This document shows positions 2,150 to 36,866 of a stretch of 64,000 bases of DNA, in pieces; the stretch's first letter is position 1, and the number at the start of each line of letters is the position of its first letter. The DNA is from Gigantopelta aegis (Eukaryota; Mollusca; Gastropoda; Neomphalida; Peltospiridae): the NCBI RefSeq assembly GCF_016097555.1, contig NC_054703.1, forward strand, positions 9,251,474 through 9,315,473. Reading direction: 5' to 3'. Made by a program: the position numbers and the translations under genes. Below the pieces are notes generated by a model that worked only from the letters and a program-made list of their open reading frames with translations, had not been told where the DNA came from and ran no database searches.

Positions 2150-2221
2150 GTGCTGTATTGACCATTCTCCAAGAGAATGTTACACCCCTGCACCACGGTG
2201 AGGTTACAGCACGCACAGGGG
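2150..2221 (-). ncRNA. HDV-like ribozyme fold at LINE 5' end, probably decayed
   Basis: Same fold as the better copies at 30051-30122 and 23663-23734. P1 is CCCCTGT with GCAGGGG (one wobble), P2 is GTGCTGTA with TACAGCAC, and P4 is CATTCTC with GAGAATG. The joining strand before the P2 3' strand reads GTCAA where other copies have GCCAA. If the first C of CCAA is the catalytic base, this copy has lost it. Confidence 0.55.
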
Positions 2222-3809: not shown

Positions 3810-4117
3810 ATGAATGAATGGAATGAATGAATGAATTAATGTTTAACGACACCCCAGCACGAAAAATACATCGGCTATTGGGTGTCAAACTATGGTAATG
3901 CAAATAAATAAAGTGATGATCAACATCAATATAAAAATTCAAGGTTTAAACAAAAACAGTGTAAAGAACAGTGTAAAGAACTGTGCAAAAACAAAAATAT
4001 CACAGAATTTTACGGATACTGAATTTTACTCAAAACTGCAATTTTGTGCTGTATCGGCCATTATCAAAGAAAATGTTACACCCCTGCACCACGGTGAGGT
4101 TACAGTACGCGCAGGGG
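3810..4117 (-). mobile_element. LINE-derived short element (ribozyme head + LINE tail)
   Basis: The 5' end (right side) is the CCCCTGCGCG ribozyme-like head. The 3' end (left side) is the LINE 3' UTR with GAAT-repeat tail. It is flanked by a perfect 12-bp target duplication, TACCTGGTTTGA, at 3798-3809 and 4118-4129. It carries no coding sequence. Confidence 0.88.
4046..4117 (-). ncRNA. HDV-like ribozyme fold
   Basis: P1 CCCCTGC/GCAGGGG is intact. P2 has one mismatch (GTACTGTA against TACAGCAC). The P4 arms read CATTTTC and GATAATG, and are weaker than in other copies. The predicted cut site is exactly at the element and target junction (4117/4118). Confidence 0.5.
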
Positions 4118-5043: not shown

Positions 5044-5689
5044 TATATATATATTACCTCAGCGGTCACTCATAACAGGGAAAGTATTTTTCATATTTTC
5101 CCAGTGGGAAGTATTCTGCATTGGTCTAACGAACAATACTATTGGACGATTTGACGCTTACAAACCAATGACAAGTGTCGGTACTAAATATGACATCATC
5201 ATCGTTTGTGAAAATGTAGCTTAAAGAGTTTGTGTTTACGGCTCTCCGTTTTTGGTGTTTTTGTAAAACAAAATGTCATTTTAATGCAATTCATTATAGA
5301 TTTTTTTACAAGAATAAAGAGGCGTGCATATATATCATATAATATCTTACTTTCAGTGCAATCAAACTATGTGATATTTTTCATATCACATAATTTAAGA
5401 ATTTGATAACTTTGCAAATTAGATGTAAATTAATCGAGGTCACGGAACTAGAGTTATTGACATTTAAACAAACGTACTAGGGTGAAACTCCATAATTGTT
5501 ATATGAATTCAGTCATTTTTCGTATGGCCTAGAATGTTGTTTTATTTAATCGAACGCCGAGTTTTATCAAAGGTATTTGGTGTATATGAGATCTATTTTT
5601 ACACAAGGAGTTAGTATCCTTCTTAGAAAATGTTCAAATCATCATCTAACTGTCATTTCGCTTACAACTGTCTCGTACCATTGGGTCTT
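5044..5689. other. No gene seen
   Basis: AT-rich intergenic sequence after the Tc1 element. No domain, long frame or known repeat was recognised. Confidence 0.5.
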
Positions 5690-5795
5690 TCATATCCCGA
5701 TCATTTCCACATTTCGCGCTGATGCCGGGATGTGAACTCAGTACCTCCCAACCGTAAGTCCAACGGTTTAACCTCAACGCTACAGAGACCCTTTC
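5690..5795 (-). repeat. Possible tRNA-like SINE head
   Basis: Read on the minus strand, it has TAGCGTTGAGGTTAAACCG (A-box-like) and then, some 25 nt on, GAGTTCACATCCC (B-box-like). This spacing is that of a tRNA-type pol III promoter. No matching SINE body was found, so the call is tentative. Confidence 0.3.
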
Positions 5796-6238: not shown

Positions 6239-6433
6239 CCCCCCCCCCCCCAAATACTGTAAAGAGCAACGACAAATATGTTGTGTAATATTTATATTGT
6301 ACAAGACGCAACAACCACCAAGCTAAAGAAAACGAATCACAGTTGCACACTGTGCTTCAATCTCAGTAATAATCAAACAATGTAACAATGGGACGATGAT
6401 GATAATTATGATGCTTTATTTTGCAGGAAACCA

Positions 6434-7618
6434 ATGAAAATGATGCGAAACTCAACGCAGCAGTCGTTCACGCTTAACGAAACATCCAGTTTTATTGAGA
6501 CCACTATCGGTCTTGACGACTTTACTTATGGAAACTATTCTGATAACGGAGAAGATGATTCGTCCGTCGATGGGTGGCCATATTTAGAGAACTATGGACC
6601 CAGCTACTGGGCAGTTCTTTTGTGTATAGTTGTACTCGGAATCGCTGGAAATATCCTCCTGTATATTATGATGAGTGACGCTAAATTGAACTTCTTATCC
6701 TATTCCGTTTTCTTAAAATGGTTGGCTGTCTCCGATACTTTTTTGCTAGGCACGAGGTTTGTCATGGAAACAGAGAGAGTGTTTTCGCTTCGGTCACTTT
6801 TGGTAATTAACGAGGCCCTCTGTAAAATACTAACCACCTTCAAAATATTTGTGATGATTGTTTCGCCGTGGCTGGTGGCTGGACTCTCTCTTGACAGATA
6901 CGTGTGCGTCTGTTGGCCACTGAAGAGAGAGGTACTTTGTACCCGGATGAAGGCAAGAATCGTCTGCTCCGTAACGCTTGGTATGTCGATCGTCTTGATA
7001 ATCCCCATTTTTACTGAATTACATATGGTGGAAGGACGTTGTACCCCCACCCAGGAAATCTATTACTATTTCATCTTCATTAGAATATTGCTGATGGCTG
7101 GCTTGCCGTGCTTGTTCATTCTCGTGCTAAACATCCTTATAATTATCCAGCTGAAACGAAGCCATGCTTTCCGAAAAGTTTTTACAAGATCAGGGAATGA
7201 TCCAGACAGTCACCCGGAAACTAATGCCACACGTTCCCTAGTGTTGATTTGCATAATGGCTTTTGTTACACTGATGCCAGCGGCGGTATTAGATGCATAT
7301 ATTAGTGCGTTAATAGTACTGGACATTGATGAAAAAGCTCTCATATCAAGTCTGAAAATATGGCCTCTATTTATCATGGTTTACGTGTTAAATTTCGGGC
7401 AGAACTTTTACATCTTGATTGGAAGTTCATCAAACTATCGGAACATCATCAAGAGAAGGCTGGTTTGCTGCAGGTTCAAACAGAATAAAGAGGGAAGAAA
7501 CATGACGATGAATGTCATCCAGCGTTACAGCAGTGGATCAGAATCTGCTTTACCACAGCCAACAGTTTCATCTGGTATAATGTTTTCAACATTGCCAGTC
7601 AGTCCATCTGATATCTAG
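6434..7618 (+). CDS. Class A (rhodopsin-like) GPCR, peptide-receptor type
   Basis: A 394-residue seven-transmembrane receptor at the cell surface; the ligand cannot be told from sequence, but the family look is that of neuropeptide receptors expanded in lophotrochozoans. The N-terminus has N-glycosylation sites at N6, N15 and N34. TM1 (about 58-80) holds GN at 72-73; TM2 holds LAVSD with D101. Cys130 and Cys203 form the expected disulfide pair. DRY is at 154-156 at the end of TM3, followed by WPLK. TM5 has P225. TM6 has P282 but lacks the usual CWxP. TM7 reads LNFGQNFYILI, a divergent NPxxY. Cys345 and Cys346 may be palmitoylated. A polypyrimidine-AG acceptor ends at 6426, just before the ATG, so a 5' UTR intron is likely and the coding region is one exon. 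The last codons (SPSDI-stop) lie within the first unit of a 36-bp minisatellite. A paralog lies at 35704-36866. Confidence 0.9.
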   Translation: MKMMRNSTQQSFTLNETSSFIETTIGLDDFTYGNYSDNGEDDSSVDGWPYLENYGPSYWAVLLCIVVLGIAGNILLYIMMSDAKLNFLSYSVFLKWLAVSDTFLLGTRFVMETERVFSLRSLLVINEALCKILTTFKIFVMIVSPWLVAGLSLDRYVCVCWPLKREVLCTRMKARIVCSVTLGMSIVLIIPIFTELHMVEGRCTPTQEIYYYFIFIRILLMAGLPCLFILVLNILIIIQLKRSHAFRKVFTRSGNDPDSHPETNATRSLVLICIMAFVTLMPAAVLDAYISALIVLDIDEKALISSLKIWPLFIMVYVLNFGQNFYILIGSSSNYRNIIKRRLVCCRFKQNKEGRNMTMNVIQRYSSGSESALPQPTVSSGIMFSTLPVSPSDI

Positions 7619-8161: not shown

Positions 8162-8489
8162 ATGAATGAATGAATGAATGAATGAATGAATGTTTAACGA
8201 CATGAATGAATGAATGAATGTTTAACGACACCCCAGCACGAAAAATACATCGGCTATTGGGTGTCAAACTATGGTAATGCAAATAAATAAAGTGATGATC
8301 AACATCAATATAAAAATTCAAGTTTTAAACAAAAACAGTGTAAAGAACTGTACAAAAATACAAATACAAATATCACAGAATTTTACGGACACCGAATCTT
8401 ACTCTAAACTTCAATTTGTGCTGTACTGGCCTTTCTCAAAGAGAATGTTACACCCCTGCACCACGGCGAGGTTACAGCACGCGCAGGGG
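8162..8489 (-). mobile_element. LINE-derived short element
   Basis: Ribozyme head at the right and LINE tail at the left, with the tail partly doubled (two GAAT runs each followed by GTTTAACGACA). A perfect 12-bp target duplication, ATCTAGAACTGA, lies at 8150-8161 and 8490-8501, inside the minisatellite. Confidence 0.88.
8418..8489 (-). ncRNA. HDV-like ribozyme fold
   Basis: P1 CCCCTGC/GCAGGGG and P2 GTGCTGTA/TACAGCAC are intact. One change in the P3 loop gives TCGCCGT. P4 is CATTCTC/GAGAAAG with one mismatch. The joining strand is GCCAG in place of GCCAA. Confidence 0.5.
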
Positions 8490-11400
8490 ATCTAGAACTG
8501 AGTATTGTGAAACACTCCATCTGGTATCTAGAACTGAATAGTCCATCTGATATATACAACTGAATAGTCAATCTGATATCTGAAACTGAATAATCCATCT
8601 GAATGAATGAATCAATGAATGTTTAACGACGCCCCAGCACGAAAAATACATCGGCAATTGAGTGTCAAACTATGGTAATGGGAAAAACAAAGTGATGATC
8701 AACATCAATATAAAAATCCAACAGTTAAATAAAAACACAGTGTAAAAGACTGTGTAAAAATACAAATATCACAGATAGATATAATTAAAATTTAGAATAA
8801 AACTCAGTGTCTGGATGGAATCGAAATGAATGAATGAATGAATGTTTAACGACACCCCAGCACGAAAAATACATCGGCTATTGGGTGTCAAACTATGGTA
8901 AAATGAAACAACAGTGTGATGAGCATCATCAGTATAAAAATTCAACAGTTAAATAAAAACACAGTTTAAAGGACTGTGTAAAAAATGCAAATATCACAGA
9001 TATATATATATATATATATATAATTAAAATTTTGAATAAAATTCAGTATCACGTAAACATTGTAAAATAAGTTCTGGATGGAATCGAAAGGATTCCATCA
9101 CAGTTCGTAGTCCAAATATATCTTTTCGAATTGCTTTCAGATGGGTACACTCGACCAAAATGTGTCGCACAGTCAGAAGACACTGACAGTGCTCACACTG
9201 AGGTGGAGGATCTTTCTTTAAGATAAATGAATGGGTTATATATGTATGCCCGATGTGTGGGAACGACACAAGACTTTCATCCTTCCTGCACCGTCTATAG
9301 GAGGACTGCCACTCTCCCAAGACTGGCTTGATAGCATGAAGCTTGTTCGCAACCTCACCGTTCCAATCACGTTGCCAAATTGAAAAGATAAATTTGTTCA
9401 TACCATATTTAAAATCAGTATACGGTACACCAACCCTGGCATGAGGCAAATCCAAAGCAGATTTGGCAGCTAAATCTGCCTTTTCATTACCCCTGATGCC
9501 AACATGGCTGGGTACCCAACAAAATACAATGTCTTTATTAGCAATAGATAAAAAGACACACTTTCTTATCACCATCCCAATTAAGGGATGGTCCAGCTTC
9601 ATATTACGTAAAGCTTGGAGACACGAAAGTGAGTGTAAAAATAATAAATTTGGATGCACTAGAATCCTTTATTTCTTCTAAGGCTTTAATGACTGCCCAA
9701 ACTTCAGCACTAAAGATCGATGCTGAGTCAGGCAGTCGCATGGAAAGTATTGTGTCTGATGGAAAAACTGTAGCACAAGCCACAGAATTCCCATCCCGTG
9801 ATCCATCTGTATACACAGGAATGTAATCACGGTACTTGTCCTGAATTTCCATGAAAAACTGTTTGTACACAACAGCATCTGTACGATCTTTCTTTAGATG
9901 CGAAAGATGAAACACAATTGTAGGTGGTGTAATACACCAAGGTGGTAAAACAAAATATGAAGGTGTTTCCAAAGTGTCAGTTAAATCAATGTTGGAAACC
10001 AACAAAAAACGCTTAATGCGAAGACCAAATGTACGAATAGCATTTAGCCTTGTATCAAACAACTTCATATATTTGTTGTCAAACACCGCATCATGTGTTG
10101 GATGTGTTGGTAACGATTTAATCTTGGCAGCATACTGTAGAGAAAGCTTGGCACGTCTAGCACCCAAACAAGGTTCGTGTCCATCAACGTACAAGCTCTC
10201 TACAGGAGCTGTTCTAAATGCACCAAGACAAAGCCTAAGTCCCTGATTGTGTATATGATCTAGCATCTGCAAGTAAGACTTGCGTACCGACCCATACATA
10301 ATGCATCCATAATCTAGTTTTGATCTGACTAAAGATCTATACAGACGGAGCATAACCTTTCGGTCTGCTCCCCATTCTGTATTACCAATCACGTTTAAAA
10401 TATTAAGAGCTTTTAAGCCCTTCTTTTTAACATATTTAAGATGGGGCACAAAAGATAGCTTCCTGTCAAATATAACCCCCAGAAATTTAGTCTCCTCCAC
10501 AACTGGAATTGGATTTTTGTCCAAAAACAACTGTGGATCTAAGTGAAGACCTCTTTTCTGGCAGGTATGCATACAAACCGTTTTTGCCTTTGAGAATCTA
10601 AAGCCATTGACAGTTGCCCATTGATGAAGTTTATTCAAACAAAACTGCAACTTACGTTCAATGATACTCATATTGGACGATCTATAGCAAATCTGAAAAT
10701 CATCGACATATAACGAGCAATCGACACCAGGTGTTAAACACTGGGTGATGCTGTTAATTTTCACAGAAAATAGAGTTACAGACAGGATACTACCTTGAGG
10801 CACACCCATCTCCTGTGGGTGAATGTCGGACAAAGTCGACCCCACCCGGACTTTAAAAGATCTATCTCTTAAAAACTGAGATATAAAAACTGGAAGTCGA
10901 CCTCTTAGGCCCATGCCATGGAGGTCGTTTAAAATCCCATACTTCAACGTGGTATCGTAAGCCTTCTCCAAATCAAAACACACTGAAACCAAGTGCTGAT
11001 TATGGATGAAAGCTTCCCTACAAAACGTTTCAAATCTAACAAGATGATCAACCGTGCTACGTCTAGATCTGAACCCACATTGCACGTTAGTGAGCAATTT
11101 GTGAGATTCAAGATACCAGACAAGTCTACGATCGATCATTCGTTCCATGGTTTTACAAATGCAACTTGTCAAAGCGATAGGGCGATAACTAGTAGGATTG
11201 GTTGGATCCTTACCAGGCTTGGGAATAGGAATGATAATAGCTTTCCTCCAATCAGAAGGAAAGTCACCAGAAATCCAGATGTTATTAAAAATATTCAAAA
11301 GAACCATCAAAGATGATTCAGGTAAATGTTTTAATAACTGATAATGAATTTCATCTGGACCTACTGAAGTATCATGGGCTCTACGAAGAGCATCCTGCAA

Positions 11401-11685
11401 TTCCTCCATAGAGAAACGGCTGTTGTACACTTCAGCATTTTCAGATGAAAAATTAATGGACTGCTTTTCAGCTTTAGTTCTGACAGATGTAAAAGCATCT
11501 GTACTGAAAGCAGAAGATAAGTTATGAGAAAAGTTGTCTGCCAATGCATTAGCAATGTCACGATGAGACGTGACATCCGTATCATTGACATACAAATGAT
11601 GAACTGTATTACTGGATTCTTTACCTTTGATTTTACGGATCCTATTCCAGACAGATTTTACTGATGTTTGTGAATTCAGTTTGGA

Positions 11686-11964
11686 ATGAATGAATGTTGA
11701 ACGACACCCCAGCACGAAAAATACATCGGCTATTGGGTGTCAAACTATGGTAATGCAAATAAATAAATAAAGTGATGATTAACATCAATATAAAAATCCA
11801 AGACTTAAACAAAAACTGTGTCAAGAACTGTGCAAAAACACAAATATCACAGAATTTTACGGATACTGAATTTTACTCAAAACTTCAATTTTGTGCTGTA
11901 TTGGCCATTCTCAAAGAGAATGTTACACCCCTGCACCACGGTGAGGTTACAGCACACGCAGGGG
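11686..11964 (-). mobile_element. LINE-derived short element nested in LINE A ORF2
   Basis: 279 bp, ribozyme head at the right, LINE tail at the left. A perfect 15-bp target duplication, TGAATTCAGTTTGGA, lies at 11671-11685 and 11965-11979. Removing one duplicate and the element restores continuity with the uninterrupted LINE C at the same point, so the boundaries are exact. Confidence 0.93.
11893..11964 (-). ncRNA. HDV-like ribozyme fold, intact by eye
   Basis: P1 CCCCTGC/GCAGGGG, P2 GTGCTGTA/TACAGCAC, P3 ACC/GGT with loop TCACCGT, P4 CATTCTC/GAGAATG with a TTT loop, and joining strand GCCAA. The predicted cut lies at 11964/11965, exactly the insertion junction set by the 15-bp target duplication. 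Confidence 0.7.
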
Positions 11965-13000
11965 TGAATTCAGTTTGGAGACAAAAGTTCTCCAAGATGT
12001 TTTCTTACTCTGTCTAATCTCTCTGCGAGCCTTAGCCCTAGCAATACGAAATGCATCCAGGTTGTCTGATGTAGGTTCACGTTTGAACCGCTCAAGCAAC
12101 CTGTTTCGCTCTTTGAATGCATCTTTGCACGTATCATTAAACCATGGTTTATTGAAACGCTTTGGTACTGCCGAAGTCTTAGGAATAGTTTCATCTGCAA
12201 TGTCCTTCAAGATGGAAGTGAACAACGACATGGGATCATCAGCATCAGTAATGGCAAATTGTTGCAGACGAGTGCTGCACAGATGCTGAAACTGACCCCA
12301 ATTTGCCTTCGCCAACTTCCACCTTTGAACCCTTTCAAGTGATGGTGGTCCATCATTCTCCAAAATAATGGGAAAGTGGTCACTACCACAAGGGTCTGAA
12401 CCAACTTTCCAGGAGAAATCAAGAAAAAGTGAAGGACTACAAAGGGTTAAATCTATAGAAGTGAAAGAACCACTTGCAGAATGAAAATATGTACGACTTT
12501 TATCATTAAATAAAAGTAAGTCATTTTTGAGAATTAAGTCTTCCAATTGTTTTCCTCTAATATTTACATCCTCGCATCCCCACAAAGTGTGGTGAAGATT
12601 AAAATCTCCCATAACAATGAAGGGAGTAGGGAGCTGATTAATGAGATCTTGAAGATCTCTTGAATTAAAATTAAAATGGTTTCGAGGAGGTAAATAAACT
12701 GAACACAGAGTTATAGTTTTATGAGCCGTGACCTTTACAGCCACAGCTTGTAAATTGGTATTTAATGTCACTATACTCTGAGGAATGTTTTCATTAACAA
12801 GAATGGAAACACCCCCAGATGCTCTATTTTCAGTTTCTTGAAATTTATGATGGAGGTTAAATCCTCTCATAGTAATATGATCAGTGTCCTTCAAGAAAGT
12901 TTCCTGAAGACACACTGCAAGAGGATTATGTTTTTGAATTAAAAGACTTAATTCATCAAAATTGGGCCTAAGCCCACGGCAGTTCCACTGAATGACTGAA

Positions 13001-14311
13001 TTAGCCATTAGGGGGAAGTACGGGAGTTATCTTTGGCTTTCGAGATCTTTGTGATTGTGGACAATCATCTGGCATTATATCCATTTGATCATCCACATCA
13101 GTCAAAGCTTCAAAAGGATTGTTGGTCGGAACCAACTGTTTTTCATATTTCTTCAGACGTCCTGAAGAAGAATCCTTATTGGGTTTTTTAAGGTCTTTCC
13201 GTGGCGAAGGCTTACTGGGACCTGGCTCCCCAGAAGATGAACCTCTTGATGGATTGGTAGAATCCAAAGACACCTGGGATGATTTGGAAACTTGTTTATT
13301 AGCAGCTTTTGTAGTTTGCTTTTGAACTTTTTCAATATTAGAAATCTTCTTAAATTTGTCCTCACCATTAGGCCATGTAAGGTCTGGCTGAATGGCTATA
13401 CTGGTTGTAGATACCTTCACAGCAGCGGCATACGATTTTCCAGCTGCTGGGGGTGTTGATGCTTCCACAACCTTTCTAGCCTCTGTGAAAGAGAGGTGTT
13501 TTTCAACTTTCACATGTTGTACCTCTTTTTCCACTTTCCACCTTGGGCACTCTCGCGAATACGCAAAGTGTTTCCCTTTACAGTTGGTACATGCCATATC
13601 ATTTTGACATGCCTTGCTGTCATGGTCAAATTGACCACAACGAGCACATGTCAATCTGTTACGGCATGTATTTTGTCCATGTCCAAATCTTTGGCATTTG
13701 AAACATCGTAAAGGGTTAGGAATATACGGCACGACAGGTATATTTAAATAACCTGCTTTGACAGAATTTGGAAGGGTTGGCATATTAAATGTAAGGATTA
13801 AGGTGTTCGTCGAAACCAGTTCATTGTTCCGACGGACCTTAATGCGCTTGACTGATGTGACACCTTGTGAGGAGAGATTTTCGCAAATCTCATCCTCACT
13901 GACTCCTTCCAAATCCCTAGACCGAACCACTCCTTTAGAGGAATTAAGGCTGGCGTGAGGACTGACTTTGATGGAAATATTACATAAATGTTTTGATTTA
14001 AGAAGATTTCTGGAATGACTCTCTGTTGAGCATTCGACCAACAATGAGCCACTCCTTAATTTCTTAACACTTTTAGGCTCGCCGGCCAAGCCTTCGAGCC
14101 CTTTTTGAATCGCAAAAGGCGACACTTTCTTCAAGGCCTCATCATCAGTAGACCCGATGACAAGAAACCTTGGCCAGGTTTTTGAAGAAATCACTCTGGA
14201 TTTCTTTACAAACAATGTCGTAGACTCTTCATCTGATGATGAAGAGTCCGAAACTTCGGTGTGGACCCTTTTCAGGGTCCCATCAAAAGTTAGTGTTGTT
14301 GTTTGAGCCAT
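13001..14311 (-). CDS. LINE A ORF1, nucleic-acid-binding protein, intact
   Basis: 436 residues if read from the ATG at 14311 (MAQTTTLTFDGTLKRVHTEV); an upstream in-frame extension is possible but is not shared by LINE C. After an acidic serine-rich stretch comes an RRM-like segment (about 46-175). Three CCHC zinc knuckles follow at about 203-216, 222-235 and 241-255 (CFKCQRFGHGQNTC, CARCGQFDHDSKAC, CTNCKGKHFAYSREC), then a lysine- and serine-rich basic tail. It binds element RNA and acts as a chaperone in related LINEs. Its stop (13001-13003) overlaps the ORF2 ATG (13006-13008). The frame is open throughout, unlike ORF2 of the same copy. Confidence 0.88.
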   Translation of the reverse strand: MAQTTTLTFDGTLKRVHTEVSDSSSSDEESTTLFVKKSRVISSKTWPRFLVIGSTDDEALKKVSPFAIQKGLEGLAGEPKSVKKLRSGSLLVECSTESHSRNLLKSKHLCNISIKVSPHASLNSSKGVVRSRDLEGVSEDEICENLSSQGVTSVKRIKVRRNNELVSTNTLILTFNMPTLPNSVKAGYLNIPVVPYIPNPLRCFKCQRFGHGQNTCRNRLTCARCGQFDHDSKACQNDMACTNCKGKHFAYSRECPRWKVEKEVQHVKVEKHLSFTEARKVVEASTPPAAGKSYAAAVKVSTTSIAIQPDLTWPNGEDKFKKISNIEKVQKQTTKAANKQVSKSSQVSLDSTNPSRGSSSGEPGPSKPSPRKDLKKPNKDSSSGRLKKYEKQLVPTNNPFEALTDVDDQMDIMPDDCPQSQRSRKPKITPVLPPNG

Positions 14312-14746
14312 AATATAGTTCATATAATTCATCACTCATGCTCCCCACCCACCACGGAGTCCAACAAGGGGACATGATGCTGCGGATAACCAGCAGACAA
14401 TCATGCCAGGGATACATGGTTGAGATACTCAGGCAATAAGAAATAATAAATCACCTGATTGACCCTAGCCACCGCCCCAAGAGCAACAAAACATATGACC
14501 ATTGAAACAATGTTTGTTCTTTGGAAATGTAACAAAGCAAAGGGTTGTATGCCCTCGAGCTTGACGTGACCAGCCGATTGATCAGGTCGGGCCTTCCTGA
14601 ACACCCGTCTATATGAACTCCGGGCCAAAGTGATTTATTGTCAGAAGTCATACCCGCAGGTATGCCCCAACTCAATCACCAGGATCCCATCATCCATTTT
14701 CACGGGTTGCACCTCACGGCAAACAAGGTGCCTCATACGAGGAGTT

Positions 14747-14818
14747 GTGCATTTATTGGCCATTCTATAAAAGAATGTTCACCCCTGCACCACGGTGAGG
14801 TTAATGCACACGCAGGGG
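14747..14818 (-). ncRNA. HDV-like ribozyme fold with compensatory P2 changes
   Basis: P1 CCCCTGC/GCAGGGG. P2 here is GTGCATT with AATGCAC, where other copies have GTGCTGT with ACAGCAC: both strands changed together. P4 keeps six pairs (CATTCT/AGAATG). The C-C-A-A joining strand is kept. The 5' end coincides with the target duplication of LINE A. Confidence 0.65.
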
Positions 14819-17449: not shown

Positions 17450-17950
17450 TTAACGACACCGCAGCACGAAAAATACATCGGCTATTGGGTGTCAAACTAT
17501 GGTTAATGCAAAACTAAAGTGATGATCAACATCAATATAAAAACTATGGTGTCAAACTATCGTAATGGAAACAAACAAGGTGATGATCAACATCAACAGA
17601 AAAATTCAAGCTATAACTAAAAACAGTGTAAAGAACTGTGCAAAAATACAAATACAAATATCAGAGATAAGATACTGACTTACTGTAAACTTCAATTTGT
17701 GCTGTATTGGCCATTCTCAGCGAGAATGTTACACCCCTGCACCACGTTGGGGTTACAGCACGCGCAGAGGCCATTCTCAGCGAGAATGTTACACCCCTGC
17801 ACCACGGTGAGGTTACAGCACGTGCAGAGGCCATTCTCAGCGAGAATGTTACACCCCTGCACCACGGTGAGGTTACAGCACGCGCAGAGGCCATTCTCAG
17901 CGAGAATGTTACACCCCTGCACCACGTTGGGGTTACAGCACGCGCAGTGG
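17450..17950 (-). mobile_element. LINE-derived element with four tandem ribozyme heads
   Basis: The LINE tail part (17450-17700) contains an internal partial duplication (two copies of GTGTCAAACTAT). To its right the 5' head is repeated as four exact 60-bp units (17711-17950). The overall layout resembles tandem 5' monomers of some LINEs. Confidence 0.82.
17699..17950 (-). ncRNA. Tandem HDV-like ribozyme heads (60-bp x 4)
   Basis: Each unit has the P1, P2 5' strand, P3 and P4 parts. Only the innermost unit (17699-17770) is followed by the P2 3' strand TACAGCAC, so only it can form the whole fold. P1 there is CCTCTGC/GCAGGGG with a wobble, P3 loop CCAACGT, P4 CATTCTC/GAGAATG with loop GCT, joining strand GCCAA. 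The two outer units share a GTTGGGG variant, the two inner ones CGGTGAGG. Confidence 0.6.
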
Positions 17951-18008: not shown

Positions 18009-18196
18009 AATGAATGAATGAATGAATGAATGTTTAACGACACCCCAGCACGAAAAATACATCGGCTATTGGGTGTCAAACTATGGTAAAATGCAAGAAA
18101 AGTGTGATGATCATCATCAATATAAAAATTCAACAATTAAATAAAAACACAGTGTAAAGGACTGTGTAAAAGTACAAATATCACAGATAGATATAA

Positions 18197-21100
18197 TTAA
18201 AATTTAGAATAAAATTCAGTATCTCGTAAAAACTGCAATAAAAGTTCTGGATGGAATCGAAATGATTCCATCACATTTCTTTGTCCAAATATATCTTTTC
18301 GAGTTTCTGACAACTGCTTACACTCCACCAAAATGTGTCGCACAGTCAGAAGACACTGGCAGTGCTCACACTGAGGTGGAGGATCTTTCTTCAAGATAAA
18401 TGAATGGGTTAAGTAAGTGTGACCGATGCGGGCACGACACAAGACTATTTCATCCTTCCTGCACCGTCTATAGGAGGACTGCCACTCTCCCAAGACTAGC
18501 TTGATAGCATGAAGCTTGTTCCCGCAACCTCACCGTCCCAATCACGTTGCCAAATCGAAAAGATAAATTTGTTAATACCATATTTAAAATCAGTATACGG
18601 TACACCAACCCTGGCATGAGGCAAATCCAAAGCAGACTTGGCAGCTAAATCTGCCTTTTCATTACCCCTGATGCCAACATGGCTGGGTACCCAACAAAAT
18701 ACAATGTCTTTATTACCAATAGATAAAAAGACACACTTTCGTATCACCATCCCAATTAAGGGATGGTCCAGCTTCATATTACGTAAAGCTTGGAGACAAG
18801 AAAGTGAGTCAGTAAAAATAATAAATTTGGATGCACTAGAATCCTTTATTTCTTCTAAGGCTTTAATGACTGCCCAAACTTCAGCACTAAAGATCGATGC
18901 TGAGTCAGGTAGTCGCATGGAAAGTATTGTCGTTAAACAAACATTCAATCAATCAATCAATCATGGAAAGTATTGTGTCTGATGGAAAAACTGTAGCACA
19001 AGCCACAGAATTCCCATCCCGTGATCCATCTGTATACACAGGAATGTAATCACGGTACTTGTCCTGAATTTCCATGAACAATTGTTTATAAACTACAGCA
19101 TCTGTACGATCTTTCTTCAGATGCGCCAGATGAAACACAATTTTAGGTGATGTAATACACCATGGTGGTAAAACAAAATATGAAGGAGTTTCCAAAGTGT
19201 CAGTTAAATCAATGTTGGAAAGCGACAAAAAACGCTTAATGCGAAGACCAAATGTACGAATAGCATTTAGCCTTGCATCAAACAACTTCATATATTTGTT
19301 GTCAAACACAGCATCATGAGCTGGATGTGTTGGTAAAGATTTAATCTTGGCAGCATACTGCAGAGAAAGCTTTGCACGTCTAGCACCCAAACAGGGTTCA
19401 TGTGCATCAACGTACAAGCTCTCTACAGGTGATGTTCTAAACGCACCAAGACAAAGCCTAAGTCCCTGATTGTGTATAGGATCTAGCATCTGCAAGTAAG
19501 ACTTGCGTGCCGAACCATACACAATGCATCCATAATCAAGTTTAGACCTCACAAGAGATCTATACAGACGGAGCATAACCTTGCGGTCTGCTCCCCATTC
19601 CGTATTACCAATAACTTTTAAAATATTGAGAGCTTTTAAGCCCTTCTTTTTAACATATTTAAGATGGGGCACAAAAGATAGCTTCCTGTCAAATATAACC
19701 CCCAGAAATTTAGTCTCCTCCACAACTGAAATTGGATTTTTGTCCAAAAACAACTGTGGATCTAAGTGAAGACCTCTTTTCTGGCAGATATGCATACAAA
19801 CCGTTTTTGCCTTTGAGAATCTAAAGCCATTGTCAGTTGCCCATTGATGAAGTTATTCAAACAAAGCTGCAACTTACGTTCAATGATACTCATATTGGAC
19901 GATCTATAGGAAATCTGAAAATCATCGACATATAACGAGCAATCGACACCAGGTGTTAAACACTGGGTGATGCTGTTAATTTTCACAAAAAATAGAGTTA
20001 CAGACAGGATACTACCTTGAGGCACACCCATCTCCTGTGGGTGAATGTCGGACAAAGTCGACCCCACCCGGACTTTAAAAGATCTATCTCTTAAAAACTG
20101 AGATATAAAAACTGGAAGTCGACCTCTTAAGCCCATGCCATGGAGGTCGTTTAAAATCCCATACTTCCACGTGGTGTCGTAAGCTTTCTCCAAATCAAAA
20201 AACACTGAAACCAAGTGCTGATTATGGATGAAAGCTTCCCTACAAAACGTTTCAAATCTAAGAAGATGATCAACCGTGCTACGTCTAGATCTGAACCCAC
20301 ATTGCACGTTAGTGAGCAATTTGTGAGATTCAAGATACCAGACAAGTCTACGATTGATCATGCGTTCCATGGTTTTACAAATGCAACTTGTCAAAGCGAT
20401 AGGGCGATAACTAGTAGGATTGGTTGGATCCTTACCAGGCTTGGGAATAGGAATGATAATAGCTTCCTCCAATCAGAAGGAAAGTCACCAGAAATCCAAA
20501 TGTTATTAAAAACATTCAAAAGAACCATCAAAGATGATTCAGGTAAATGTTTTAATAACTGATAATGAATTTCATCTGGACCTACTGAAGTATCACGGGC
20601 TCTACGAAGAGCATCCTGCAATTCCTCCATAGAGAAACGCATGTTGTACACTTCAGCATTTTCAGATGCAAAATTAATGGACTGCTTTTCAGCTTTAGTT
20701 CTGACAGATGTAAAAGCATCTGTACTGAAAGCAGAAGATGAGTTATGAGAAAAGTTGTCTGCCAATGCATTAGCAATGTCACGATGAGACGTGACATCCG
20801 TATCACTGACAGACAAATGATGAACTGTATTACTGGATTCTTTACCTTTGATTTTACGGATCCTATTCCATACAGATTTTACTGATGTTTGTGAATTTAA
20901 CTTGGAGACAAAAGTTCTCCAAGATGTTTTCTTACTCTGTCTAATCTCTCTGCGAGCCTTAGCCCTAGCAATACGAAATGCATCCAGGTTGTCTGATGTA
21001 GGTTCACGTTTGAACCGCTCAAGCAACCTGTTTCGCTGTTTGAATGCATTTTTGCACGTATCATTAAACCATGGTTTACTGAAACGCTTTGGTACTGCCG

Positions 21101-21935
21101 AAGTCTTAGGAATAGTTTCATCTGCAATGTCCTTCAAGATGGAAGTGAACAAAGACATGGGATCATCAGCATCAGTAATGGCAAATTGTTGCAGACGAGT
21201 GCTGCACAGATGCTGAAACTGACCCCAATTTGCCTTCGCCAACTTCCACCTTTGAACCCTTTCAAGTGATGGTGGTCCATCATTCTCCAAAATAATGGGA
21301 AAGTGGTCACTACCACAAGGGTCTGAACCAACTTTCCAGGAGAAATCAAGAAAAAGTGATGGACTACAAAGAGTTAAATCTATGGAAGTGAAAGATCCAC
21401 TTGCAGAATGAAAATATGTACGACTTTTATCATTAAATAAAAGTAAGTCATTTTTGAGAATTAAGTCTTCCAATTGTTTACCTCTAATATTGATATCCTC
21501 GCATCCCCACAAAGTGTGGTGACCATTAAAATCTCCCATAATAATAAAGGGAGTAGGAAGCTGGTTAATGAGATCTTGAAGATCTCTAGAATTAAAATTA
21601 AAATGGTTTCGAGGAGGTAAATAAACTGAACACAGAGTTATAGTTTTATGAGCCGTGACCTTTACAGCCACAGCTTGTAAATTTGTAGTTAAAGCTACTA
21701 TACTCTGAGGAATGTTTTCATTAACAAGAATGGAAACACCCCCAGATGCTCTATTTTCAGTTTCATGAAACTTATGATAGAGGTTAAATCCTCTCATGGT
21801 AATATGATCAGTGTCCTTCAAGAACGTTTCCTGAAGACACACTGCAAGAGGATTATGTTTTTGAATTAAAAGACTTAATTCATCAAAATTGGGCCTAAGC
21901 CCACGGCAGTTCCACTGAATGACTGAATTAGTCAT
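18197..21935 (-). pseudogene. LINE C ORF2: endonuclease, RT, RNase H
   Basis: Starts at the ATG at 21935, sharing TAATG with the ORF1 stop. The first 514 codons are open and cover the AP endonuclease (MGDFNGHHTLWGC, GSDHFPIIL) and the start of RT. Disruptions then fall near 20465 (base change in the run before AIIIPIPKPG), near 19852 (one T lost), at 18931-18976 (31-bp insertion plus a 15-bp duplication) and near 18517 (two extra bases). Between them RT (QEMGVPQGSILS, YVDD), RNase H (YTDGSRDG, CWVPSHVGIRGNEKAD) and the zinc motif CEHCQCLLTVRHILVEC are recognisable. Confidence 0.88.
18931..18961 (+). mobile_element. 31-bp tail-only retrotransposon insertion
   Basis: CGTTAAACAAACATTC followed by a short AATC run, flanked by a perfect 15-bp duplication CATGGAAAGTATTGT (18916-18930 and 18962-18976). 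LINE A has a single copy of that 15-mer. The inserted bases match the 3' end of SINE or LINE tails in this window (GTCGTTAAAC), so this is an extreme 5' truncation. Confidence 0.8.
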
Positions 21936-23230
21936 TAGGGGGAAAGTACAGGAGTTATCTTTGGCTTATGAGATCTCTGTGGGTGTGGACGGTCATCTGG
22001 CACTATATCCATTTGATCATCCACATCAGCCAAAGCTTCAAATGGATTGTTGGTCGAAACCAACTTTGTTTCAGCTTTCTTCAGTCGTCCTGAAGAAGAA
22101 TCCTTATGCTGCTTTTTGGTGTCTTTTCTTGACGGAGGCTTACTGGGACCTGGCTCCCCAGGCGATGAGCCTCTTGATGGATTCCTAGAATCCAAAGACA
22201 CTTGAGTAGATGTTGAAACTTGTTTATGAACAGTCTGTTTTTTGACATCTTTTGGATGAGAAATCTTCTTAAATGTATCCTCACTGTTGGGCCAAGTTAA
22301 ATCAGTTTGAGTAGCTATACTCGTTGTAGAAACCTTGACAGCCGTGGCATATGATTTACCTAATACCACATTTGTCGAAGACTCTACAAGTTTTCTAGCA
22401 TCAATGAAAGTCAGGCGCTTTTCTACCTTGACCTGCTGCACCTGTTTTTCCACTTTCCACTTTGGGCACTCTCGCGAGTACGCAAAGTGTTTCCCTTTAC
22501 AATTGGTACATATCATATCATTCTGACATGTCTTGCTATCATGGTCAAACTGACCACAACGAGCACATGTCAATCTGTTGCGACATGTATTCTGTCCGTG
22601 TCCAAACTTTTGACATTTGAAACACCGTAAAGGGTTCGGGATGTAAGGTACAACTGGTATATTCAGGTAACCTGCTTTAACTGAAGATGGAAGTGTAGGC
22701 ACATTGAATGACAGGATCAAGGTGTTTGTCGGCACAAGTTCATTATTCCGACGAACCTTAATCCGCTTGACTGATGTAACCCCTTGTGAAGAGAGATTTT
22801 CGCAAATCTCATCCTCACTAACTCCTTCCAAATCCCGAGATCGAACTACTCCTTTAGATGAATTTAGAGTAGCGTGAGGACTCACAATGATAGAAATGTT
22901 GCATATCATTTTAGATTTAAGAAGATTTCTGGAATGACTCTCTGTTGAACATTCAACCAACAATGAGCCATTCCTCAATTTCTTGACAGTTTTGGGCTCT
23001 CCGGCCAAGCCTTCGAGCCCTTTCTGAATTGCAAAGGGCGACAGTTTTTTCAAGGCCCCTTCATCGGAAGAACCGATGACGAGAAACCTTGGCCAGGTTT
23101 TCAAAGAAATCACTTTGGATTTCTTAACATTCAAAGACTTAGATTCTTCATCAGATGATGAAGAATCTGAAACTTCGGTGTGAACCCTTTTCAGGGTCCC
23201 ATCAAAAGATTGAGATTGGTTAATATCCAT
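21935..23230 (-). CDS. LINE C ORF1, nucleic-acid-binding protein, intact
   Basis: 431 residues from MDINQSQSFDGTLKRVHTEV at 23230; an in-frame extension upstream to 23335 has no counterpart in LINE A. Same order as the LINE A protein: acidic serine-rich start, RRM-like segment (PRFLVIGSSDEGALKKL onward), three CCHC knuckles (CFKCQKFGHGQNTC, CARCGQFDHDSKTC, CTNCKGKHFAYSREC), basic serine-rich tail ending PVLSP. Its stop TAA (21935-21937) overlaps the ORF2 start as TAATG, which suggests translation by termination and re-initiation. Confidence 0.88.
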   Translation of the reverse strand: MDINQSQSFDGTLKRVHTEVSDSSSSDEESKSLNVKKSKVISLKTWPRFLVIGSSDEGALKKLSPFAIQKGLEGLAGEPKTVKKLRNGSLLVECSTESHSRNLLKSKMICNISIIVSPHATLNSSKGVVRSRDLEGVSEDEICENLSSQGVTSVKRIKVRRNNELVPTNTLILSFNVPTLPSSVKAGYLNIPVVPYIPNPLRCFKCQKFGHGQNTCRNRLTCARCGQFDHDSKTCQNDMICTNCKGKHFAYSRECPKWKVEKQVQQVKVEKRLTFIDARKLVESSTNVVLGKSYATAVKVSTTSIATQTDLTWPNSEDTFKKISHPKDVKKQTVHKQVSTSTQVSLDSRNPSRGSSPGEPGPSKPPSRKDTKKQHKDSSSGRLKKAETKLVSTNNPFEALADVDDQMDIVPDDRPHPQRSHKPKITPVLSP

Positions 23231-23662
23231 ATTAGAAATCAAATGGTTCATCAACCATGCCCCCACCCACCACGGAGTCCAACAAGGGGACATGATGCTG
23301 CGGATAACCAGCAGGCACTCATGCCAGGGATACATGGTTGATATACTCAGGCAAGAAAAAATTAATCACCTGATTGACCCTAGCCACCGCACTAAGAGCA
23401 ACAAATACAAAAGGTAATTAAAACAATGTTTTTTCTTGGCTATATAAACAAAACAAAGGTTGTTTGCTCTAGAGCTTGGCATGACCAGCCGATTAATCAG
23501 GTCGGGCCTTCCTGACCACCCGTCTGGCTGAACTCCAGGCCAAAGTGGTGTGTTGCCAGAAAACATACCCGCAGATATGCCCCCAACTCAACCACCAGGA
23601 TCCCATCATCCAGCATTACGGGATGCACCTCACGGCCAACAAGGTGCCCCAAAAGGGGATTT

Positions 23663-23734
23663 GTGCTGTATTGGCCATTCTCAAAGAGAATGTTACACCC
23701 CTGCACCACGGTGAGGTTACAGCACACGCAGGGG
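23663..23734 (-). ncRNA. HDV-like ribozyme fold at LINE C 5' end, intact by eye
   Basis: P1 CCCCTGC/GCAGGGG, P2 GTGCTGTA/TACAGCAC, P3 ACC/GGT, P4 CATTCTC/GAGAATG, joining strand GCCAA. The first base of P1 is the first base of the element as fixed by the target duplication. Downstream lies the LINE 5' UTR. Confidence 0.7.
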
Positions 23735-27891: not shown

Positions 27892-28086
27892 TGTAAACAA
27901 ATAAAGTGATGATAAACATCAATATAACAATTCAAGATTTAAAAAAAAACAGTGTAAAGAACTGTGCAAAAATACAAATATCACAGATAGATACTGACTT
28001 TTACTAAAAATTTCAATTGTGCTGTATTGGTCATTCTCAAAGAGAATGTTACACCCTGCACCACAGTGAGGTTACAGCACGCGCAT
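27892..28086 (-). mobile_element. LINE-derived short element, worn at both ends
   Basis: The body matches 11686-11964, but the GAAT tail is missing on the left and the last four bases of the head (P1 5' strand) are missing on the right. P2 and P4 of the ribozyme fold are still present (28024-28086), but P1 cannot form. Confidence 0.75.
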
Positions 28087-28271
28087 TTTTGAAAGCTGAT
28101 CTCTGTTTCAATCATTTGTAATGGCATTTGCATTTTAAATTCGTCTACTTTTTTATAGTTTATAGTGTAGCTTAAATATGGATTGACGCAGTTTCTACCG
28201 TGCTCCGAAGGGGATAGCGGAGGAATCTACTAACCAACCAATCCATCTATGGCAGTCTTCTCATGATACAC

Positions 28272-29645: not shown

Positions 29646-30050
29646 AACACAAAACCGACTAAGATATTTCCTGTCCCTACTAGCAATGAATACATCTAGA
29701 AGGAACCTAACTATACCGTTGAAACTCTTACACATGTATTATTTGTTTCATCGTTTTAGATAAAGTGACAGACAACAGTTGTGGTTGCAGTACTCGTGAC
29801 GGGTGACAGTACTCGCGACGGGTGACAATACTCGCGACGAGTGGCAGTACTCGCGATGGGTGGCAGTACTCGCGATGGGTGACAGTACTCATGACAGGTG
29901 ACTGCTCATGACGGGTGACAGTACTCGCGATGGGCGGCAGTACTGGCGATGGGCGACAGTATTCATGAAGGTGACAGTGCTCATGACGAGTGACAGTACT
30001 CGTAACAGGTGACAGTACTCGTGACGGGTGACAGTACTCATAACAGGTGG

Positions 30051-30122
30051 CCCCTGCGTGTGCTGTAACCTCACCGTGGTGCAGGGGTGTAACATTCTCT
30101 TTGAGAATGGCCAATACAGCAC
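30051..30122 (+). ncRNA. HDV-like ribozyme fold, reference copy
   Basis: P1 30051-30057 with 30081-30087. P2 30060-30067 with 30115-30122. P3 30068-30070 with 30078-30080, closed by a 7-nt loop TCACCGT. P4 30093-30099 with 30103-30109, loop TTT. Joining strand GCCAA at 30110-30114, where C111 or C112 of the 30xxx numbering would be the catalytic cytosine (the C-N-A-A rule favours 30111). All stems are Watson-Crick. No cleavage has been tested. Confidence 0.7.
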
Positions 30123-30313
30123 AAAATTGAAGTTTTGAGTAAAATTCAGTATCCGTAAAATTCTGTGATATTTGTGTTTTTGCACAGTTCTTTACACAGT
30201 TTTTGTTTAAGTCTTGGATTTTTATATTGATGTTGATCATCACTTTATTTATTTGCATTACCATAGTGTGACACCCAATAGCCGATGTATTTTTCGTGCT
30301 GGGGTGTCGTTAA

Positions 30314-30695
30314 AGGGACATTCCTGAGTTTGCTGCAATGTTTTAACATGTTATCGACTAATAAAATATTTCTACGATTAAACTTATACATTAAATATAT
30401 TTTCTTGTTTAGAATATTAGTGGCTGTATATTAAACGTTTTCTGATTGTTCTAATATTTGTTCTAGGTTAATTTTCATTATATTTCCTATACAAATATTT
30501 TTTCGTACGTACGAAATTATTTGAAGACAAAATCCAGTTTGGGCTTCTTACAAATATTAAGACGACCAGAAGCACATTAAATATACAGACACTGATATTC
30601 TAAACAAGAAAATATATTTAATATGTAAGTTTAATCGTAGAAATATTTCATTAATCGGATACATTTTATAATGCAGCAAACTCGGGAATGTCTAT
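30314..30695. mobile_element. Foldback MITE inside a LINE-derived element
   Basis: 382 bp with TTAA on both sides (30310-30313 and 30696-30699). The host sequence GTCGTTAAACATTC is known from many copies, so the insertion point and TTAA duplication are certain. Inverted arms of about 170 bp; the centre holds TTTCGTACGTACGAAA. Confidence 0.92.
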
Positions 30696-30724: not shown

Positions 30725-30796
30725 CCCCTGCGTGTGCTGTAACCTCACCGTGGTGCAGGGGTGTAACATTCTCTTTGAGAATGGCCAATACAACAC
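30725..30796 (+). ncRNA. HDV-like ribozyme fold, one P2 mismatch
   Basis: As 30051-30122, but the P2 3' strand reads TACAACAC, which gives one A-C mismatch. P1, P3, P4 and GCCAA are unchanged. Confidence 0.6.
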
Positions 30797-35703: not shown

Positions 35704-36866
35704 TCATTTGCGGACACCAGATGTAATAGACTCCAGTGATACACCAGTCGTACCGAATCCAGAACCGCTACTGTCAGGAGTATTTATTACTGCAGCTCGA
35801 TTCAGTCGACTTGCATGTTTCTGTTTCGAAGTATAACAACTCAGTCGGTTTCTAATGATCTGTCGATAGTTTGATGAACTTCCAATCAGGATGTAAAAGT
35901 TCTGTGCAAAATTAAACATGTATATTATGTAACAGACTGCCCATATATTACCAAGTAATGTCAGATCTTTGAAATCGTTGTCAAATAGTCTTATTGAAAC
36001 TACAACGCACCTTAACAATGTCTGTGGTATCATGGTGACGAACGCCAGTACAGACACTAACACCAGAGGGCGCGTTGAACTGTCTTGCTGGTGACTAGCT
36101 GAATTAGCCGTTGACCTAATAAAAGTATTTCGGAAGTTGCGGCTTCGTTGGATTTGAATAATGATAAATATGTTCAGCACAAGGATAACCAAGCACGGTA
36201 GAGTGGAAGAAAATAGCAATTGAATGAACATGAAATAATACTTAATGTCTTCTGACGGGAAACATTGACCTCTTACCAATTCTATGTGAAAAGGAAAGGG
36301 TAGGCTTAATACAACAGACAGACCAACCAAACTAGAACAGAAGACAATAGCTTTCATCCGGGTACAAAATATGTCTCGCTTTAATGGAAAACAGACGCAT
36401 ACGTATCTATCTACTGTAAGTCCAACCACCAACCACAACGACACAATCCTAAAGCTGAAAGGTAGCATACACAGGGTTTTCTTTATTTCTACAAATTGCC
36501 CTAGAATGTATATCTTTTCACTTTCATAGATTAGCGTTGTGATTAGAAAACAACTGTCGGAAACGGCCAAACATTTCAAGTAGACTGAATAAGATAAGGA
36601 ATTCAATTTCTTGTCTCCCATCATAATGAACACTAGGATGTTCCCTATGGTTCCTATCACAGTAATGCACAACACGATGCCCCAGAAAATGTGTTTGTAT
36701 TTGTCAAAATCCGACCATAGTTTAAAAAAAATTATGTATTATTGGATTTTAGTTCTTGTCCATGGCCAGAATAGTTTCGATCAGTAAAGTTGTCTCGATC
36801 CGTAGACGTCTGTATAAAGCTAGATGCTTGATTCACTGGGAACAGTGGTTGAGCTGTGGTGGACAT
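35704..36866 (-). pseudogene. Second class A GPCR, frame broken after the N-terminus
   Basis: Paralog of 6434-7618. The main frame (from about 36725 to 35704) carries TM1 with TIGNILVFIMM, LAVSD in TM2, a Cys before TM3, DRYVCVCFPLK, the CFPSED extracellular Cys, a TM6 ending FVTMIPQ, TM7 NFAQNFYILIGSSSNYR, and a cytoplasmic tail. The matching N-terminus (ATG at 36866, MSTTAQPLFPVNQASSFIQT with glycosylation sites) is in another frame and stops at TAA 36732, next to an A8 run (36724-36731). An AG acceptor just upstream (36897) is in the same place as in GPCR 1. A homopolymer error in the assembly would give the same picture, so the gene may be functional. Confidence 0.8.

Follow-up and report, generated by a model that had tools for sequence, protein, structure and literature searches.

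A probable HDV-like self-cleaving ribozyme at the 5' end of a LINE and its short derivative in the mollusc Gigantopelta aegis

Known elements with a 5' ribozyme

HDV-like ribozymes have been reported at the 5' ends of a number of non-LTR elements, including R2, R4/Dong, Baggins, RTE, and L1Tc (PMC3774820). The original prediction for this DNA had named R2, RTE-like, and L1Tc/ingi elements. In trypanosomatids, L1Tc/NARTc, ingi/RIME, and the SIDERs are described as having a common 5' HDV-like ribozyme, several of which are active in vitro (PMC4035085). Drosophila R2 SIDEs combine the R2 ribozyme with the R2 3' end, and both the R2 and the SIDE ribozymes are reported to self-cleave in vitro (PMC3414825). 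R2 has also been reported from an oyster (PMC5035012), and an HDV-like ribozyme is described from the abalone Haliotis discus (PMC3774820).

The locus described here resembles these systems in several ways. A LINE and its internally deleted derivatives (SIDEs) are both headed by an HDV-like ribozyme, as in L1Tc/ingi (PMC4035085). As in the Drosophila R2 SIDEs and R2/R1 hybrid SIDEs, the 5' HDV-like ribozyme of a LINE is joined to a LINE 3' end. The sharing of such a ribozyme by a LINE and a SIDE is already known in trypanosomatids and in Drosophila R2. Compared with the trypanosomatids, however, the host here is an animal, the derivative has a small inversion, and the ribozyme is putative. The Drosophila R2 SIDEs are described as rare, as occupying fixed rDNA sites, and as using 28S co-transcripts (PMC3414825), whereas the mollusc family is dispersed, with 9,119 core matches when LINE, SIDE, and fragments are taken together. 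R2 ribozymes often cut at a site upstream of their element, but the mollusc element starts exactly at base 1. The Haliotis discus ribozyme has five nucleotides in place of the P4 stem (PMC3774820), unlike the P4 of 7 bp found here. Searches of an open library, by title and start of abstract, listed no report of a 5' HDV-like ribozyme on a LINE or SIDE from molluscs, which is no proof of novelty.

The fold of the first 72 nucleotides

The whole 64-kb stretch of DNA that was analysed is referred to as the window. Within it, positions 30051-30122 (72 nt) fit the nested double pseudoknot of HDV-like ribozymes. The helices P1, P2, P3, P1.1, and P4 have 7, 8, 3, 2, and 7 bp, respectively.

30051..30122, + strand: putative HDV-like ribozyme at the 5' end of a SIDE copy (from sequence, descriptor, pair counts, and Rfam); pairings P1 1-7/31-37, P2 10-17/65-72, P3 18-20/28-30, and P4 43-49/53-59

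The sequence and the P1, P2, P3, and P4 pairings match the original prediction. P1.1 was not named there, yet two pairs (C22-G39 and A23-U38) could possibly form it. The J4/2 strand is G60-C61-C62-A63-A64. The C-C-A-A that had been placed before the P2 3' strand is thus present as C61 to A64, with G60 omitted from the earlier description. By HDV numbering, we take C61 (position 30111) to be the catalytic-type C of J4/2. U21 and G26 are presumably the reverse wobble pair of L3, also by HDV numbering.

A BLAST search of the window with the 72 nt found 13 copies, four of them units of one 60-nt tandem, and a covariance model (R1) gave 11 matches. The further copies and their carriers are the following.

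30725..30796, + strand: ribozyme of the next SIDE copy, with one P2 pair broken
18009..23734, - strand: LINE copy with broken frames, comprising the 5' ribozyme, ORF1, ORF2 (APE and RT pieces), 3' tail, and (ATTC)n; target duplication CCAACTGTAGCG/CCAATTGTAGCG
23663..23734, - strand: ribozyme of this full-length LINE copy, identical to 30051-30122
8827..14818, - strand: second LINE copy, interrupted by a SIDE; ORF1 14335-13001, APE 13026-11947, RT and weak RNase H 11739-9604 and 9668-9024; target duplication TTTCGATTCC (by eye)
14745..14818, - strand: ribozyme of the second LINE, with two P2 pairs changed on both sides, a bulged A, and 6 of 7 P4 pairs
11686..11964, - strand: SIDE within ORF2 of the 14818 LINE; ribozyme 11893-11964; duplication TCCAAACTGAATTCA
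8163..8489, - strand: SIDE; ribozyme 8418-8489, with one P4 pair broken; duplication TCAGTTCTAGAT, in satellite (by eye)
3810..4117, - strand: SIDE; ribozyme 4046-4117, with one P2 and one P4 pair broken; duplication TCAAACCAGGTA
2150..2221, - strand: ribozyme of a LINE copy heading to the left edge of the window, with T at position 61
28019..28089, - strand: decayed copy, with the P1 5' strand lost and 3 of 7 pairs left
17699..17950, - strand: four tandem units of ribozyme positions 1-60 with L3 variants, starting at 17950, 17890, 17830, and 17770

Ten window copies were tabulated for pairing. P3 and P1.1 are fully paired in all ten, P1 in nine, P2 in eight, and P4 in seven. C61 is kept in 9/10, U21 is present in 9/10, and G26 is present in 10/10. 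These counts were made with one gap placed by hand and one bulged A removed in copy 14818, and with one gap placed in copy 28089. The exceptions look like decayed copies, as 28089 is without a P1 strand and 2221 has T61. The most telling structural sign of the predicted fold is a two-sided change in P2 of the LINE copy 14818. Its pairs 14-68 and 15-67 are A-U and U-A, in contrast to U-A and G-C in the other nine tabulated copies. The change was seen in this one copy only, which also has one bulged A. A third LINE copy (locus L023) has the same altered P2 5' strand, and the rest of its ribozyme is deleted. No two-sided pair changes were seen by eye in 31 genome copies, in which the P1 3' strand was fixed by the way they were selected.

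The fold was also explored with descriptors. An HDV-like descriptor gave six matches in the window, each at element base 1. The same strict descriptor gave 31 matches in total in 100 dinucleotide-shuffled windows, with at most two in any one (0.31 per window on average). With a somewhat looser descriptor, only seven of 20,000 dinucleotide shuffles of a 75-mer had any match, and two of these were at base 1. The 30051 copy scored 45 and the 14818 copy scored 42, and no shuffle scored 43 or higher. These shuffle figures are somewhat favourable because both descriptors were written with the 30051 sequence in view. This, together with the background of 0.31 matches per shuffled window, speaks for the pseudoknot having arisen by chance in a repeat end rich in G+C. 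Such a reading is almost certainly wrong, since all six window matches are at element base 1, very few composition-matched shuffles match at all, and P2 appears to be compensated in copy 14818. When loose descriptors were applied to 200 kb of neighbouring DNA, simple repeats dominated the output. Minimum-free-energy folding, which cannot form a pseudoknot, was unremarkable (z of -1.31 and -1.50).

Comparison with the Rfam covariance models had been proposed with the original prediction. No match was found in the 64-kb window at gathering scores. When 30031-30140 was searched alone against 4,227 families, the best match was to the HDV-like family RF02682 (E 3e-4), in register, with model position 1 on 30051. 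The score of 29.5 bits is below the gathering score of 44. RF02682 (HDV-F-prausnitzii) has the same start, the same P3, and a similar L3. It is, however, bacterial, and the mollusc element, scoring below the gathering score, is not filed as a member. RF01787 (drz-agam-1), which is also HDV-like, was at chance level for 30031-30140 (E 4.2). In an E-value search of 3000-32000, RF02682 was found at two copies only (11964, E 0.08, and 14818, E 0.32), and these ranked below unrelated families, some of them microRNA. Neither 30051 nor 23734, two copies with the same sequence, appeared in the results of that search, perhaps due to filters.

The original prediction pointed to a likeness to L1Tc/ingi in the P3 and loop region. 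This likeness is real, as positions 18-28 agree with L1Tc at 10 of 11 letters taken from a published mutation list (PMC4748587). It is not particular to L1Tc. The Rfam consensus of RF02682 (F. prausnitzii) has a similar loop, as does a conserved R2 sequence (PMC5035012), and the L1Tc-like loop therefore points to structural constraint and not to descent. The same region bears on whether the 5' 72 nt could combine a ribozyme with an internal promoter for Pol II that has CGTG as a downstream element. The trypanosome sequence Pr77 is reported to have both functions, promoter and ribozyme (PMC4035085), and CGTG lies at 25-28 in the mollusc element, the same positions as the DPE of L1Tc Pr77 (PMC4748587). 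However, these letters complete L3 and supply the opening base of the P3 3' strand, where they would be constrained by the HDV-like fold, and RF02682 has the same four letters at that site. A double role of this kind is conceivable and, on these grounds, unlikely.

Carriers, element start, and copies in the genome

The two long LINE copies in the window (23734 to 18009 and 14818 to 8827) are interrupted or frame-broken, and the second sits in the ORF2 end of another LINE copy. ORF1 has CCHC motifs (by eye), and the one ORF1 tested matched no Pfam family. ORF2 has endonuclease (APE) and reverse transcriptase domains, with an RNase H match below the Pfam cut-off. By architecture, this combination would allow an I-type element. 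The SIDE is ~280-330 nt long and runs in the order LINE 1-75, inverted 5540-5504 (~36 nt), LINE 5548-5702, and tail. Because it is built of the two ends of the LINE without the coding middle, it is a SIDE made from the LINE. The inversion is of the kind that twin priming could leave. No Pol III A or B boxes were found in the SIDE with a simple consensus, and the best B-box match had four mismatches. With its LINE-end build, the element is a SIDE and not a tRNA-type SINE. The claim that a LINE and its dependants share the 5' ribozyme holds, with the correction that the dependants are internally deleted LINE derivatives with an inversion and not SINEs of unrelated origin.

Other features were seen among and around these copies. 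An inverted-repeat element with ends like GGACATTCCTGAGTTTGCT is found inside the tails of two SIDE-type copies (~30314-30690 and 17440-17060, by eye). An open frame at 1984-2493 is interrupted by LINE copy 2221, and its start resembles the N-terminus of a helix-turn-helix transposase (by eye). The window also contains two long, mutually similar GPCR-like frames at 6386-7618 (+) and 35704-36738 (-), both by eye, and a 59-bp satellite from 55831 to ~61500 with 92 registered copies.

The start of the element can be read from target duplications. Five of the 11 element starts in the window (4117, 8489, 11964, 14818, and 23734) have a duplication that ends at base -1. Of these, 8489 is in satellite sequence, 23734 has one mismatch in 12, and at 11964 one C leaves the boundary ambiguous. 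Two of the five, 8489 and 14818, were identified by eye. The other six starts in the window have no usable target duplication, being decayed, in tandem, in satellite, or with none found. None was found for the 17950 tandem copy.

Copies elsewhere in the 1.15-Gb genome were sought with a 30-base core (positions 17-46). With three or fewer mismatches there were 9,119 matches, a number that includes LINE, SIDE, fragments, tandem units, and decayed copies and is not one of intact ribozymes. A reversed control pattern gave none. A genome-wide DNA query with the 72 nt, in a search that skips common words, gave no match. The sample studied was the loci of exact core matches, namely the first 30 along contig C1, which is not a random draw from the 9,119. 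In these 30 loci, model R1 gave 33 matches, corresponding to 31 distinct copies after two duplicates from overlapping loci. Two of the loci (L047 and L048) may be one duplicated insertion counted twice, because their ribozymes are identical, as are the 16 bases just upstream. All helices and C61 are intact in 18 of the 31 copies (7 distinct sequences), and the other 13 are without a helix pair or C61. Taken singly, P1 is intact in 24, P2 in 27, P4 in 25, and C61 in 29. P3, L3 (U21/G26 in 31/31), P1.1, and the P1 3' strand are intact as well, which is no proof since they were fixed by the search pattern.

In 22 of the 31 genome copies, a direct repeat with no mismatch ends at base -1. The search covered exact repeats of 7 to 20 nt within 6.5 kb and gives figures without a shuffle control. 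The repeats are of 11 to at least 20 nt in 21 copies and of 8 nt in one. In 18/22, the second repeat is preceded by twelve bases that resemble (ATTC)n, and in four (L032, L041, L046, and L053) it is not. Information in the 31 copies is 0.49 bits at base -1 and 1.39 bits at base +1. Base 1 is C in 28/31, and C is found at base -1 in 0/31. A further copy in neighbouring DNA (L024) has a target duplication (by eye), an extra C at its start, and a deletion of the ribozyme middle. The five duplications named in the original prediction are present and all end at base -1, and together with the 22 genome junctions they agree that the first P1 base is the first element base.

A promoter starting at base 1 would also give exact 5' ends. 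The conserved 5' end could then serve just as a promoter, or as an RNA structure that binds protein, and would not cleave, and the Rfam gathering score that was not reached is in keeping with this. We consider it highly improbable, since element base 1 is the start of a putative double pseudoknot with C61, the top Rfam family is HDV-like and in register, and the pseudoknot helix P2 has changed on both sides in one copy. A self-cleaving ribozyme is the preferred reading.

Portions of the ribozyme are also found in tandem arrays. In the array at 17950-17770, the units run head to tail, with base 1 of the next unit directly after base 60. C61-C62 match C1-C2, and the P2 3' strand is present only in the last unit. 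Four core matches spaced 57 nt are present on contig C1 (G000:C1:19288067-19288267). When model R1 was run on 200 kb of neighbouring DNA (L012-L031, E up to 1), only one truncated copy and a satellite at L018 were found, and LINE and tail pieces are frequent in L022-L025 despite so few matches. The L018 satellite (L018:7651-8343; G000:C5 near 9.383 Mb) has about ten 69-bp tandem units. By eye, these match ribozyme positions 19 to ~68, including P3, L3, P1', P4, and the catalytic-type C. They are without the first P1 and P2 strands, and model R1 gives E 0.28. The satellite is probably derived from the ribozyme region. As a lead only, such arrays could have been seeded by a copying jump from base 1 back to 61-62, or by later unequal exchange. 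Template jumps are reported for R2 (PMC3414825), and tandem 5' signatures are described in SIDER2 (PMC4035085).

Among the best 120 of 2,899 relatives of the LINE, most are unnamed proteins, up to 87% identical, and the named ones include those from Patella caerulea (63%), Plakobranchus ocellatus (52%), and the spider Araneus ventricosus (49%). Relatives, as proteins or loci, are also found in assemblies of lucinid and Solemya symbionts and of other bacteria. An RT alignment search of prokaryote assemblies gave eight loci (L004-L011). Animal-type LINEs in symbiont and MAG records are presumably host DNA contamination. An RT alignment search of viral contigs gave no relatives. The P3/P1' core pattern was seen in three viral contigs, and by eye these look like chance matches.

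In these eight relatives, neither model R1 nor Rfam found anything HDV-like. Of the eight, only L005 is shown to extend past the ribozyme site, and L007 starts inside the 5' region. Scattered weak descriptor matches in the eight were taken as chance. From about position 85 onwards, the L005 relative is homologous to the 5' region of the LINE. It does not share the ribozyme, and no HDV-like match was found at its 5' end. At L005:7150-7720, on a contig of a Solemya velum symbiont, the place of the ribozyme is taken by a different 5' module that includes a closing stem and GTCGTAAGAGGCGACTAAAAGGG. This module is possibly another structured or catalytic RNA. The ribozyme could be imagined as an old I/Ingi-type LINE module that predates the animal-trypanosome split, was kept by mollusc LINEs and SIDEs, and was replaced in the L005 relative. 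We regard this history as quite improbable.

Proposed mechanism and significance

Judged from its sequence, the first 72 nt of the LINE and of its short derivative are very probably an HDV-like self-cleaving ribozyme. The reading first proposed for this DNA, which comprised the fold, the catalytic-type C, the exact 5' position, and the carriage by a LINE and its dependants, is supported, and 22/31 genome junctions have been added to it.

To the observed pairing, exact start, carriers, and number of core matches, a mechanism can be added. A genomic copy would be transcribed within a longer (host) RNA. In this RNA the ribozyme would fold as a nested double pseudoknot and would cut just before its own base 1. 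The cut would release an element RNA with its 5' end exactly at base 1, and the LINE endonuclease and reverse transcriptase could copy the released RNA at a new site. Because the released RNA would start at base 1, full-length copies would carry their own ribozyme and would need no promoter of their own. The SIDE keeps the 5' ribozyme and the 3' tail of the LINE, and we infer that it is mobilised in trans by the LINE proteins through the shared 3' end.

One animal genome has about nine thousand matches to the core of a probable HDV-like ribozyme, carried on a LINE and on a SIDE built from that LINE. This allows tests of how non-LTR elements with no known promoter define their 5' ends, of whether derivatives mobilised in trans depend on keeping the ribozyme, and of whether host transcripts are cut by dispersed ribozymes in their thousands. 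A dispersed mollusc family would join the trypanosomatids and Drosophila R2 in showing the pattern of a ribozyme shared by LINE and SIDE.
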